Positions 1,980 to 29,323 of a DNA stretch of 29,460 nt are shown here, piece after piece (position 1 is the stretch's first letter; every line of letters begins with the position of its first letter). The translations under genes and the position numbers were made by a program. This DNA comes from a virus. The stretch spans positions 1 to 29,460 of the IMG/VR virus record IMGVR_UViG_3300036939_000019; one strand, 5' to 3'. A model generated the notes under the pieces. That model was not told the DNA's origin. It was given only the letters and a program-made list of their open reading frames with translations, and made no database searches.

Positions 1980-2417
1980 TCACTCCCAGGGAGCGGCGGT
2001 GCCCGAGCTGGCCGCCGGCGTGGCCGGGGACGGCTTGGTCACGCGGGACGCGAGGAAGTCGGTGCCGAGCTTGACGTCGGCCTCGGTGACCTCCTCGGAC
2101 AGGAGCCAGGGCTTGTTCTGTCCGGGCTTCTTGGCACCCTGGCCCAGGCGGGCGAGGATCATCTCGCCGAGCTTGTTCCGGGTCTGCGACTTGAGGACCT
2201 TGGGGAAGATCAAGGTCTCGTCGTAGACGCGCCCGGCCTCGTCGCCGTCGAGAACGGTGATCGTGGCGCGGACAACGCCGGTCTGCGGGCCGTTGGAGGT
2301 GTTGATCTCGCCGGGGAGGACCTCCAGGGGCTCCACCAGCAGGAGACGACCGTTCAGGTCCTCCCAGGAGATGCCAGTGACGCTGGCGGGCTTGGAGAAG
2401 GGGTTCGACATGCTCAT
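1980..2417 (-). CDS. putative single-stranded DNA-binding protein, 145 aa
   Basis: This gene starts with ATG at 2417 (GAGAG five bases upstream); an in-frame ATG at 2411 is an alternative. The central part is beta-rich, with GRLLLVEPLEV near residue 23, a VRATITVLDGDEAG strand-turn and YDETLIFPKVL, followed by a helix and an ARLGQG turn. The C-terminus is a Pro/Ala/Ser linker ending SGTAAPWE. That layout (compact beta domain, flexible linker, short acidic/aromatic tip) matches a family common in actinophages that is sometimes annotated as ssDNA-binding. It also mimics the SSB design in which the tip recruits partners. The neighbouring RecB-type exonuclease and resolvase-like gene fit a role in DNA replication or recombination. 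The assignment is inference; no OB-fold could be confirmed. Confidence 0.5.
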   Translation of the reverse strand: MSMSNPFSKPASVTGISWEDLNGRLLLVEPLEVLPGEINTSNGPQTGVVRATITVLDGDEAGRVYDETLIFPKVLKSQTRNKLGEMILARLGQGAKKPGQNKPWLLSEEVTEADVKLGTDFLASRVTKPSPATPAASSGTAAPWE

Positions 2418-2911: not shown

Positions 2912-3883
2912 CTAGTTGTGGGCGAGGACGCGGGAACGGGCGCCGGCACGGGCGGTGAGGCCGTCGTGCCAGCGGGTGGTGTTGCGCTCGTAGAGCGCGC
3001 GGAGCTCCTGTTGCGTGGCTGCGGCGTCGATCTGCTCCTCGAGGGAGAGCTCGACGGCGGTGCGGTTGAGGAACCACGCCTTGTGCTTGCGGATGGCGCG
3101 GACTCGGACGGCGACCTCGGCGGCCTCCCAGCCCATGGCGATGTCCAGGGTGAGGAGCTCGGCGTGGCCTGTGCCGGCGGGGAGCCAGATGATGTAGCCG
3201 TGGTCCTGGTCGATGGGCTTGCCGCCGGCGAGGGTGGCGAGCTCGAGGCGCTGGGCCATGCCGATGTCGTAGAGCCTGGAGCGGGAGTAGACGCCGAGCT
3301 GGACGGCCATGCCGAGGGGGTAGTCCACCTTGCCCGTCTTGTTGTCGCCGATGGCGGGGACGCCGATGTGCTCGACGCCGGAGCCGACGGTCATGATCTT
3401 GTCGAAGGTGCCGCCGACGGCGAAGGGGTCGTAGACGACGAAGCGCTCCGAGGCCTGGACCTCGATCTTGTGCTTCTTGACGAGGGCCTCGTAGGCGCGG
3501 AGGTCGGGGATGTAGTTCGGCGGGACGAAGCCGAGCTCCTGGCCGTTGTCGATGCGCTCGATGAAGGAGTGGAGCGCGGTGCCCGTGGACGCGGCGCCGG
3601 AGTCGACGTGCTCCTCGGCCTTGTCGGCGATGCGCATGAGGTCTCGGTAGGCGTCCGGGCCGGCGGCCGACGCGGCGAGCACGAGGTCCGGACGCTGGGA
3701 GAGGCCGTAGACGATGCGGCGGATGTGCCACTTGTTGAGGCCGGAGGCGTCCTCGATGATCTTGGCGAAGGTGGTGACGCGCTGGTAGGGCTCGACGGGG
3801 CCGCCGTTGGGCGGCACGATGAGGGGCCGCTGCCAGCGGTCGCGGTTGATCTGGGCCTCGGGCGACGAGAAGGGGGATGCCAT
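2912..3883 (-). CDS. RecB/Cas4-family PD-(D/E)XK exonuclease
   Basis: The 323-residue protein begins at ATG 3883, with AGGAGCG upstream. Motifs in order are GTALHSFIE (about 101-109, the GTxxH helix), ERFVV (E146), GGTFDKIM (D161), IGDNKTGK (D180, K182) and QLGVYS (Q195, Y199). This H...E...D-x(n)-DxK...QxxxY series is the signature of the RecB-type nuclease clan that includes Cas4 and phage exonucleases; D161, D180 and K182 would form the metal-dependent active site. No four-cysteine iron-sulfur cluster is visible, unlike classical Cas4. Phage members usually resect DNA ends for recombination or degrade host DNA. It lies in the replication/recombination block with the kinase upstream and the putative ssDNA-binding protein downstream. 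Fold confidence is high; its exact role is inferred. Confidence 0.85.
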   Translation of the reverse strand: MASPFSSPEAQINRDRWQRPLIVPPNGGPVEPYQRVTTFAKIIEDASGLNKWHIRRIVYGLSQRPDLVLAASAAGPDAYRDLMRIADKAEEHVDSGAASTGTALHSFIERIDNGQELGFVPPNYIPDLRAYEALVKKHKIEVQASERFVVYDPFAVGGTFDKIMTVGSGVEHIGVPAIGDNKTGKVDYPLGMAVQLGVYSRSRLYDIGMAQRLELATLAGGKPIDQDHGYIIWLPAGTGHAELLTLDIAMGWEAAEVAVRVRAIRKHKAWFLNRTAVELSLEEQIDAAATQQELRALYERNTTRWHDGLTARAGARSRVLAHN

Positions 3884-3945: not shown

Positions 3946-4347
3946 CTACTCGCCGCCGTGGAGCATGAGGTGGGTGACGACGTTGAGGGCGGCGGGCGCG
4001 GGCCAGCCGGCCTCGAGCATCGCGTTGAGGATGCGGAGGTAGGAGCGCATGCCATCGACGATCTTGGCGTACTCCTGGTCCTGGGCGCTGGCGAGGAAGG
4101 ACTTGAGGTCCTCGTCGGAGAAGAGCGACTCGGGCGGGGAGGCGTCCCGCTCGGCGGCCTCGGCGTAGTCGGCGTCGAGGTCGGCGCCGTTGCCGTGCTG
4201 GTCCTCGTCGCGGGGGTCGCCCATGGGCTCGGGGTCGACGTCGGGGTAGGCCGTGGCGGGGTCGACGCCGAAGTCGCGGCGCTGGCGCTCCTGCTCGTGG
4301 GGCGGAGGGACGGAGAAGGGGGCGGCGGGCTCGTCGCGGTGGGTCAC
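3946..4347 (-). CDS. hypothetical acidic protein, 133 aa
   Basis: The start is the GTG at 4347, nine bases after AAGGAG. The N-terminal 75 residues are polar, acidic and Pro-rich (probably disordered, e.g. PEPMGDPRDEDQHGNGADLD). The C-terminal 45 residues are an ordered helical region with KIVDGMRSYLRILNAMLEAG and a closing NVVTHLMLHGGE. Actinophages often carry small proteins with a comparable C-terminal 'LLxAGxPxxxALxxxxxxL' helix pair and unknown function. This gene is the first after the AT-rich iteron/inverted-repeat region, so that region would control or lead its transcript. Confidence 0.7.
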   Translation of the reverse strand: MTHRDEPAAPFSVPPPHEQERQRRDFGVDPATAYPDVDPEPMGDPRDEDQHGNGADLDADYAEAAERDASPPESLFSDEDLKSFLASAQDQEYAKIVDGMRSYLRILNAMLEAGWPAPAALNVVTHLMLHGGE

Positions 4348-4371: not shown

Positions 4372-4508
4372 GGGTGAGGTTTCGTCGATGGATCATGGTT
4401 CTAGGTGAGTTTTGGTGTCTCCTCCCAGTTAGCCCTTATAGAAGGGGGTCTCTCTATAAGAGCTAACCTGGAGAAGAGACCAAAACTCACCTGGCGGGTG
4501 AGGTTTCG
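4372..4508. repeat. AT-rich iteron and inverted-repeat locus; candidate origin or operator
   Basis: This gap between two minus-strand genes (4348-4534) holds a 38-nt imperfect inverted repeat: left arm 4403-4440, right arm 4455-4492, a 14-nt loop, about 33 of 38 positions paired. The outer 14 bp (AGGTGAGTTTTGGT and its complement) are perfect, and inner blocks GTTAGC/GCTAAC and CTTATA/TATAAG also match. A 13-bp direct repeat, GGGTGAGGTTTCG, flanks it at 4372-4384 and 4496-4508. All four elements share the core GGTGAGKTTT, so it reads as four iteron-like boxes, three on plus and one on minus. The AT content is far above its surroundings. No ORF fits. It could be a replication origin, a regulator-binding operator or a structured RNA. 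Confidence 0.7.
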
Positions 4509-4534: not shown

Positions 4535-5218
4535 TCAGTCACGAAGCCGTGACGATGGGTAGACATCCGAGAGCCTGACGAGGCGCTCGGGGAAGAGGAC
4601 GGCCGGCGCCCCGCGCTCGACGCGCTCGCGGAGGTCGGCGACGGTGCGGCGCTGCTCCTCGGCGAAGGTGGCGATGGCGTCGGCGGCGTCCTGGAGCTCG
4701 AAGATGCCCTTGTCGTTGACGACCTCGACGTCGGCCTCCCAGGTGTCGAGCGCGACCTCGCTGGCGTGCTGGTCGCCGACGTCGGCCTGACCGGGGCGGG
4801 AGATGCGGACGAGCGTGCCGAGCCGTGTTGAAACGGCGTCGTGCTCGTTGGGGAAGCGGACGTCCGTGATGACGACGGGGCCGTCGATGGCGTCGACGCG
4901 GGCCATGCCGGCCCGGACCCAGAAGTCGGGGTCGAGGGAGCGGATGCTCTCGGAGCCGAGGCGCTGGAGGGTGCGCCGGACCTCGGGGATCTCCTTGGCG
5001 CGGTCCCATCCGAGCCGGGAGACGAGCGCACTGAGCCGGACCTCGCCCGTGGACCCCTCCCAGACGTGGCCGACGATGGGGTCGAGGGCCAGGGCGGCCT
5101 CGCGCACGAGGTCGGCGAAGGCGACGCGGGTGTAGTCGTGGTGAGAGACGAGGCGCTCAGCGAAGGTGTCCTTCCCCGCGCGCTTCTTGCCCATGAGGCC
5201 GATGAGGGTGGTTGCCAC
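4535..5218 (-). CDS. deoxynucleoside monophosphate kinase (P-loop)
   Basis: This 227-residue protein starts at GTG 5218 with AAGGAG eight bases upstream. The N-terminus carries a P-loop, GKKRAGKDT (10-18), of the GxxxxGKD(S/T) form typical of phage dNMP kinases. Further family-like features are YTRVAFADLVREAALALDP (nucleotide/LID-side helix), GSESIRSLDPDFWV and VVITDVRFPNEHDAV (about 116-130); the DVRFPNE segment is a hallmark of the phage deoxynucleotide kinase family. The enzyme would phosphorylate dNMPs to supply precursors for phage DNA synthesis. It is the first gene after a terminator and a predicted promoter, so it probably heads the leftward early/replication transcript. One copy of the dispersed 8-mer lies within it at 4827-4834. 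Confidence 0.85.
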   Translation of the reverse strand: MATTLIGLMGKKRAGKDTFAERLVSHHDYTRVAFADLVREAALALDPIVGHVWEGSTGEVRLSALVSRLGWDRAKEIPEVRRTLQRLGSESIRSLDPDFWVRAGMARVDAIDGPVVITDVRFPNEHDAVSTRLGTLVRISRPGQADVGDQHASEVALDTWEADVEVVNDKGIFELQDAADAIATFAEEQRRTVADLRERVERGAPAVLFPERLVRLSDVYPSSRLRD

Positions 5219-27472: not shown

Positions 27473-29302
27473 CTAGCGGTGGTAGCGCTCGCCGCCACCG
27501 AAGCCACGAGGGGCCTCGATGCGCGTGAGGTGGCCGGCGTCGGCCCAGGAGCGGAGAGACTCGCGGGCGAGACGGTCGTGCATGCCGCCGGCGCGGGCGG
27601 CGAGGTCCGAGACGGTACGCGGCGTGGCGTCGAGGGCGTCCCAGAGAGCCGCGCGGTTGGCGGGGACTCGGGTGCCGTCGGGGAAGCGCGGCGCGTCGTC
27701 GTACTCGGAGGCGGAGATCTCGAAGACGAGCTCGGGGTCGTCCTCGAGGGTGACCTCGGCGTTGCGGACTGCGGGGAGGTCGGCGGACTCGACGAGGGCG
27801 TTGAGCTCGTCGTCGGTGATAAAGTAGGTGCGGATGAGGCGGGGCTGGCCGGAGGCGCCGATGTAGGCTGCGCCGCGCATCTCCTCGTCGATCTTCGAGG
27901 CGTCGGGGTCCCGGCGGCCGAGGATCATCTCGGAGCCGTCGGTGTCGCCGACGCGGAAGGCGATGCGGTAGGTGAAGCCCCGACGGGTGTCGGTCTCCAT
28001 GAGGTTGGAGCTGGGGAACTGCGTGGCGGCGATGACGATGAGGCCGGCGGAGCGGCCACGGTTGAGGAGGTCCTGGAGGGCCTTCTCGAAGTCCTTGCCG
28101 TACTCCTTGTCGCGGATGTAGACGGCGAGCTCGTCGATGAGGAGGACGACGGGGCCGATGCGGCCGGCGGTCTCGGTGAACTTGCGCTTCTTGAGCTCGC
28201 GCATGATGTCCTGGCGGACGGTAAGCTCGTGCTGGAGGGTCTTGAGGACCTCGAGGCCCTCGCGGGCGGAGTCGCCGACGTAGGCGCGCGCGTGGCGGCG
28301 CCAGGCCCAGAACTCGGTGCGCTTGCCGTCGAGGAAGTAGACCTCGGCGGTGGGGTCCTTCACGGCGACGGCGGCGAACATGGCCTGGAGGTTGCTCTTC
28401 CCGGAGCCGGGCTCGCCGGCGATGAGGAGGTGGCGCTCGAGGAGCTTGACGGAGATCTCCTGGGCGTCCCTTCGGATGCCGACGGGGATGGGGGCGAGGA
28501 TGCTCGGGCGGTTCGCACGGAGGAGGGGCCAGCCTCGGACCTCTTCGAGGACGTTCGTGGTGTGGGTGAGGACGTCGACGAGGTTGCCGGACTTGGGGAC
28601 CTCGACGAGCTCGATGGCTTCGGGGTCGGTTCGGAGGAGGTTCGCCATGCCGGCGGTCCGCTTCGAGACGAACTCGTAGAGGCTCGCGCCGTCGGGGATG
28701 GCGAGCCGGCGGAGGGAGCCCGTCTTCGTGGCGATGGCCTCGCCGTACCACTGGGCGCCCTTGAGCCAGGCGATGCCGGCGAAGGGGTCGGTGACGGCGG
28801 GGGTGTGCTCGGCCGGCGGGGCGCCCTCCCAGCGGACGACGCGCTTGGCGTCGTGGGCGAGCCAGATCTTCGACTTCCAGAAGGGGATGCCGAGGATGGT
28901 GGTGAGGAGGAGGCCCGTGATGGTGACCTGGAGGTTGGCGCCGTAGACGGTGGCGGCGAGCATCCACCCGGCCGTCGCGGCGATGCCGGAGGCGGCGGCC
29001 AGGACGACGGGCTTGGTGGACTTGACGAGGGAGAGGTACGCGGCGGCCAGGCCGAATCCGATGAACCAGCCGTAGACGGAGGACGCCTCGAGCCAGCGGC
29101 GGGAGGGCGGATCGATGGTCACGCGGTGCCACTGGGTGAGCGCGTAGAGGATGCCGAACGTGATGTACGGCAGGGAGTCGGCTCGACCGTTGTTGAGCAG
29201 GGAGCCGAAGGGGGAGACGAGCTTGCGGAAGAGGTAGTTGAGCTTGGAGAACGCCATCCGAGAGCGGCCCGGGGAGGTGGTGCTCGGCACGACGTTGGAC
29301 AC
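27473..29302 (-). CDS. FtsK/SpoIIIE-type (TraB-like) membrane-anchored DNA translocase
   Basis: GTG at 29302 is eight bases from GGGAG; the in-frame ATG at 29308 and GTG at 29311 are closer alternatives, too near the ribosome site. The 609-residue protein has hydrophobic N-terminal spans near residues 77-94, 98-120 and 123-142. An FtsK-type ATPase follows: Walker A HLLIAGEPGSGKSN (about 291-304), FLDGKRTEFWAW, Walker B VVLLIDELAVY (about 385-395), then GRSAGLIVIAATQFPSSNLM and a FRVGDTDGSEMILG segment characteristic of FtsK/Tra pumps. Residues 540-609 look like a winged-helix DNA-reading domain (RAALWDALDATPRTVSDLAA). The same layout is seen in Streptomyces plasmid TraB proteins, which move double-stranded DNA. 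In a phage it could act in genome segregation, DNA entry or plasmid-like transfer (inference). Confidence 0.87.
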   Translation of the reverse strand: MSNVVPSTTSPGRSRMAFSKLNYLFRKLVSPFGSLLNNGRADSLPYITFGILYALTQWHRVTIDPPSRRWLEASSVYGWFIGFGLAAAYLSLVKSTKPVVLAAASGIAATAGWMLAATVYGANLQVTITGLLLTTILGIPFWKSKIWLAHDAKRVVRWEGAPPAEHTPAVTDPFAGIAWLKGAQWYGEAIATKTGSLRRLAIPDGASLYEFVSKRTAGMANLLRTDPEAIELVEVPKSGNLVDVLTHTTNVLEEVRGWPLLRANRPSILAPIPVGIRRDAQEISVKLLERHLLIAGEPGSGKSNLQAMFAAVAVKDPTAEVYFLDGKRTEFWAWRRHARAYVGDSAREGLEVLKTLQHELTVRQDIMRELKKRKFTETAGRIGPVVLLIDELAVYIRDKEYGKDFEKALQDLLNRGRSAGLIVIAATQFPSSNLMETDTRRGFTYRIAFRVGDTDGSEMILGRRDPDASKIDEEMRGAAYIGASGQPRLIRTYFITDDELNALVESADLPAVRNAEVTLEDDPELVFEISASEYDDAPRFPDGTRVPANRAALWDALDATPRTVSDLAARAGGMHDRLARESLRSWADAGHLTRIEAPRGFGGGERYHR

Positions 29303-29323
29303 GATCATCACTCCCTTTCTGGC

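Follow-up and report, generated by a model that had tools for sequence, protein, structure and literature searches.

Paired long inverted repeats at operon heads in actinobacterial siphophages: a putative operator with genome-specific boxes

Phage lambda carries two operators, oL and oR, at the heads of two operons, each with several half-sites whose specificity is common within a genome and differs between related phages. The locus described here, together with its counterparts in relatives, shares these properties, but has a palindromic architecture of about 100 bp, and its relation to a promoter and its repressor are putative. To our knowledge, no known operator family has these sequences. 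The put sites of phage HK022 and RNase III leader hairpins are also stem-loops heading two early operons, acting as RNA; the inverted repeats (IRs) considered here differ in having no strand-specific wobble bias. Iteron-type origins resemble them in having repeated boxes beside an AT-rich core, but here there is no skew signal, and two copies stand at operon heads.

Repeated sites in intergenic DNA are also described in actinophages. The stoperators of cluster A mycobacteriophages and cluster CA phages are 13-14 bp long and asymmetric, and a genome has about 25 of them in one orientation (PMC13313380). Like these, the IRs would be phage-specific repeated binding sites (binding being predicted here), but they form two palindromic clusters. 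Microbacterium cluster EG and cluster O phages have short intergenic inverted repeats, similarly upstream of starts, but of 17-18 bp and in 8-10 copies (PMC7302621, PMC9224216); the other repeats in the Microbacterium survey belong to other clusters (PMC7302621). No published description of the paired IRs was found in the open-access cluster AZ, Microbacterium, Rhodococcus, and prophage literature, and the cluster AZ paper does not mention repeats, promoters, or operators. By analogy, the element would work like a paired operator, placed in no named family.

The element and its neighbors

The window analyzed is a linear IMG/VR virus record of 29,460 bp, siphophage-like, with nearly all genes on the - strand; it is probably a genome fragment. 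The element sits in a gap of about 190 bp between a deoxynucleoside monophosphate (dNMP) kinase gene and a 133-aa ORF followed by an exonuclease gene:

4535..5218 (-): dNMP kinase, upstream of the element (PF21448, 57.6 bits; phrog_139)
4496..4508 (+): outer direct-repeat box GGGTGAGGTTTCG, copy 2
4486..4502 (-, sense): weak terminator-like stem, in which the outer box pairs with the first arm box, then TTTT
4453..4492 (-): IR arm, the 5′ arm on the sense (-) strand, with box CCAAAACTCACCT at its end on the + strand
4443..4452: loop separating the arms, 10 nt
4403..4442 (-): IR arm, the 3′ arm on the sense (-) strand, beginning with box AGGTGAGTTTTGG on the + strand
4372..4384 (+): outer direct-repeat box GGGTGAGGTTTCG, copy 1
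3946..4347 (-): 133-aa ORF directly downstream of the element, RBS AAGGAG
2912..3883 (-): phage exonuclease, start inferred at ATG 3883 (phrog_466)

An earlier reading of the sequence alone (the sequence-only reading) had described four GGTGAGKTTT elements, the outer two as 13-bp direct repeats, around a 38-nt inverted repeat (4403-4440/4455-4492) in an AT-rich gap. The four elements are exact and the two 13-bp repeats identical. The IR does pair perfectly over its outer 14 bp, but its arms are 40 nt each and 88% complementary; no other inverted repeat of the whole window is as long or as good, and it is the top hairpin of the record. All four exact matches to GGTGAGKTTT in the window lie inside the element, and the search of the remaining sequence that had been proposed finds none elsewhere; with one mismatch allowed there are 6 matches against 1.66 expected, a number reached by 2 of 100 shuffles. 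The locus is indeed AT-rich, with a GC content of 0.575-0.585 (200-bp windows) against 0.65-0.755 around it. On the sense strand the element region folds at -75 kcal/mol, compared to -39 ± 3.8 for shuffles (z -9.4; 0 of 200). The terminator-like stem is near chance (1 found, 0.4 expected).

The element had been placed at the start of a block of DNA-metabolism genes; it is not ahead of the first of them, the kinase gene lying upstream. The 133-aa ORF has no family match and no relatives in IMG/VR; the exonuclease has relatives 46-50% identical in a Frankiales MAG, Kribbella, and Kibdelosporangium. Downstream of it, at 1980-2417 (-), is a phrog_870 protein (92.8 bits; function not assigned in phrog) that looks like a small DNA-metabolism protein, and an FtsK/SpoIIIE-like translocase (PF01580, 39 bits; phrog_1358) is encoded at 27473-29311 (-), upstream of the terminase region.

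Inverted repeats in related phages

Relatives were found by way of the kinase: cluster AZ (Azeevirinae) Arthrobacter phages, Microbacterium cluster EH, a Curtobacterium phage, the Streptomyces phages Attoomi and RemusLoopin, and phage 4A. Most of the pre-exonuclease gaps in these kinase-carrying relatives contain a long IR; its intergenic position is shared by Azeevirinae-type phages of Arthrobacter, Microbacterium, and Curtobacterium and by phage 4A, as well as by numerous GTDB prophages and IMG/VR contigs. When IMG/VR and GTDB genomes were searched with a profile, comparable IRs, with boxes different from those of the phages just named, came up close to the kinase in Arthrobacter, Pseudarthrobacter, Streptomyces, Micromonospora, Kribbella, Actinoplanes, Microbacterium, and others. 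Soil-actinobacterial phages and prophages with such an IR number in the dozens. Comparable IRs are 70-135 bp, AT-rich, and usually placed as in the window; at several close dNMP-kinase loci (L127, L131, L147, L151, and L156) no IR was found by these scans. In the phages first reached through the kinase, the arms typically contain RTGACG boxes repeated at about 8-bp spacing, often in the order > > < ... > < <, flanking an AT-rich, pyrimidine-rich core. A number of Streptomyces loci (L069, L072, L081, L096, L141, and similar ones) have a common core near TCTCTCTAACGCGCGTTAGAGAGA and CAAACTAACCCC-type arms, and form a separate subtype.

Conservation in relatives, by which the sequence-only reading was to be judged, extends to position and architecture but not to the arms and boxes of the window: its IR has no alignable similarity to other members (best local score 13, equal to background), an exact search for its arms in IMG/VR gave no match, and neither did searching phage records with the element's DNA. 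Its assignment to the paired-IR group therefore rests on position and architecture, and in architecture there is a difference, the outer boxes being direct in the window and inverted in the others. By eye, the nearest boxes to the window's GGTGAGGTTT are GGTGAGGT, in an IMG/VR contig (L047), and GTGGGGTTT, in Kibdelosporangium (L134). The chance of the strongest hairpin in 29 kb landing in a gap of about 190 bp is roughly 0.6%, a length estimate that ignores the intergenic bias of hairpins.

As a rule, a second IR built from the same boxes precedes a right-hand operon in complete genomes, in many cases directly after the serine integrase gene. In 14 of 16 genomes the best match to copy 1 is the genome's own copy 2; copy pairs score 67.9 on average and comparisons with other genomes 19.3, a result that 0 of 10,000 permutations reached (16 genomes). 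The likeness holds where the sequence itself changes: VroomVroom has ATGTCG boxes in both copies, and Attoomi has an unrelated arm sequence, again the same in both. In Joemato, the inner dyad RTGACG-N6-8-CGTCAY is found only in the two IRs. Zeta1847 has a copy-2-type IR with GGCGGACG boxes and no clear copy 1. Recombination between copies could contribute to the likeness of pairs. The window record, at 29.5 kb, ends short of the region that holds the second IR in relatives, and the second copy of its genome presumably lay outside the contig.

A Kribbella phage contig, probably a circular phage genome, also has the second copy, inverted. The Kribbella sandramycini contig (L198-L200, 44,315 bp; 597x coverage according to its title) is seemingly a whole phage genome, bounded by an integrase-like gene on one side and by IR copy 2 on the opposite side.

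An att site, or another integrase-linked function, was rejected: both copies persist in Emotion and VroomVroom, where the stretch ahead of copy 2 has no annotated integrase and where the Joemato serine integrase has no match.

A putative operator pair

Of the three functions proposed by the sequence-only reading (origin, operator, and structured RNA), an operator bound by a dimeric phage regulator fits the comparative evidence best, because there are two copies per genome before two operons, with genome-specific boxes and both inverted and direct half-sites. The element would be a DNA-level operator for a putative phage regulator of fast-evolving specificity, controlling two early operons; we give this roughly even odds (about 0.5). 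Under this proposal, an AT-rich double-stranded control site of about 100 bp would head the exonuclease/replication operon of dNMP-kinase actinobacterial siphophages. The direct and inverted half-sites of both arms would be bound by a DNA-binding protein that the phage encodes, probably as a dimer or higher oligomer; in complete genomes this protein would also bind the matching second copy before another operon, and the two early transcription units would be switched together, as by lambda oL and oR.

Both the binding of a protein and its being a regulator are predicted here, and repression seems more likely than activation. Specificity common to the sites of one genome, as in lambda-type operators, is what the relatives display (the 14 of 16 above), and rapid change of the boxes, in both copies together, would be expected of an operator/regulator pair under selection for immunity. 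Repression in lysogeny is a prediction, and it counts against this reading that integrases but not repressors are reported for the relatives in Microbacterium cluster EH and for Zeta1847 (PMC7302621). As a universal binder, the product of the gene before the IR (Joemato gp25 type) was rejected: in phage 4A and in the window, kinase and IR are not separated by any gene.

In the Azeevirinae-type genomes of Joemato, Maureen, SpecialK, and DrManhattan, several gene blocks are preceded at a short distance by a recurring motif, TGAGCA-N11-14-GGC; in these four, only two of the sites have an IR as well, lying about 14-50 bp upstream of the motif. Unlike these genomes, the window has no TGAGCA motif. 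The motif is probably a promoter or part of a leader, perhaps phage-specific, and the IR would be a control site added for two of the operons. The motif before gene blocks is a feature of cluster AZ and Curtobacterium phages, and is often followed by TGTC (L025 19972, 21468, 23171, 25956, 36939, and 41043, with similar sites in L026, L027, and L029).

If the operator reading holds, a conserved pair of sites with a genome-specific code would provide a handle on the missing regulator, which the predicted binder should be, and box type would predict which phages have common immunity. The IR pair is also an easy annotation mark for operon heads in many sequenced actinophages.

Alternative functions

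One alternative, unlikely though not implausible, is the replication origin of the sequence-only reading, with the boxes as initiator iterons, the AT-rich core as an unwinding element, and the second copy as a secondary origin. AT-richness and position speak for it: the element heads a replication/recombination operon, and polymerase I and a primase/helicase are encoded nearby in relatives. Its boxes are iterated, both inverted and direct, and their divergence between genomes would also suit an initiator-iteron pair. Against this, GC skew, weakly informative in one-directional genomes, is unchanged at either copy in four complete genomes (Joemato, Maureen, SpecialK, and DrManhattan) and in the window, and two copies, each ahead of an operon, would be unusual for an origin.

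As a second possibility, the boxes might be read by a sigma-like protein of the Joemato gp45 family, with RTGACG as the -35 element, TATYCC 17 nt inwards as the -10, and the arms facing each other. A sigma-70-like protein is present in nearly all relatives examined (Joemato gp45, SpecialK gp41, the Attoomi sigma factor); SpecialK gp41 scores above cut-offs for Sigma70_r4 (34.4 bits) and Sigma70_r2 (25.2 bits). The protein diverges faster than its neighbors, with an identity to the Joemato version of 28-56%, compared with 62-95% for the polymerase, and a spacing of 17-18 nt can be seen by eye in many arms. However, SpecialK, Maureen, 4A, and the window have neither the spacing nor TATYCC, and the window site has no sigma-70 consensus promoter; two promoters facing each other 50 bp apart would be odd; and region 4 is well conserved although the boxes vary. 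We consider this promoter very doubtful. A simple match of region 4, or of its recognition helix, to box type was tried and is not convincing, with no clear tracking.

The fast-evolving sigma-like protein is the only widespread candidate binder found. A broader conjecture is that the paired long palindromes make up a widespread and hitherto undescribed two-site system of immunity or control in actinobacterial phages, in which box code and an unusual sigma-like reader change rapidly together, replacing a classical repressor, none having been found in these phages; in this full form we think it decidedly unlikely. Amyev and BaileyBlu have a further IR with GCGTAAG-type boxes, and Joemato a hairpin at a comparable place, upstream of or near the sigma-like gp45 gene (L025 32358-32409; L033 8736-8811, record 33020-33095; L038 11260-11355, record 31707-31802), which may be gp45's own control site.

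A structured RNA, also raised by the sequence-only reading as an RNase III-type hairpin, is disfavored by the comparison and highly unlikely. A transcribed 40-bp hairpin would here serve the leader of the exonuclease operon as a stability element, a put-like antitermination signal, or a site of RNase III processing, in keeping with its very stable fold and its place at an operon head. If such a hairpin were under selection, sense-strand G.T mismatches should exceed A.C. The window IR, taken alone, fits this expectation (three G.T, zero A.C), but 62 IRs, several of them related or duplicated so that the counts are not independent, have 2008 Watson-Crick pairs, 107 G.T, 93 A.C, and 250 others: there is no clear G.T excess, and so no sign of RNA-strand selection. 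IR cores are self-complementary at z above 2 in 41 of the 62, but a minority, including those of BaileyBlu, DrManhattan, L046, L133, and L172, pair no better than shuffles, so that the boxes, rather than a core hairpin, seem to be essential. Between the IR and the gene start, IttyBittyPiggy, DrManhattan, and KeAlii have a terminator-like hairpin; one copy is inverted in Kribbella; and Rfam returned only weak microRNA look-alikes below gathering scores. Given the mismatch counts, the non-pairing cores, and the hairpins separating IR from gene, the element most likely works as double-stranded DNA, as the operator reading supposes.

Finally, a mobile or recombination element (a MITE-like insertion or recombinase site) or a chance palindrome, suggested by a long IR between 13-bp direct repeats, is extremely unlikely and largely refuted by the conserved position: the IRs are not scattered in genomes, are present in phages without an annotated integrase, and recur at the same two positions, with different sequences, across deeply diverged phages.
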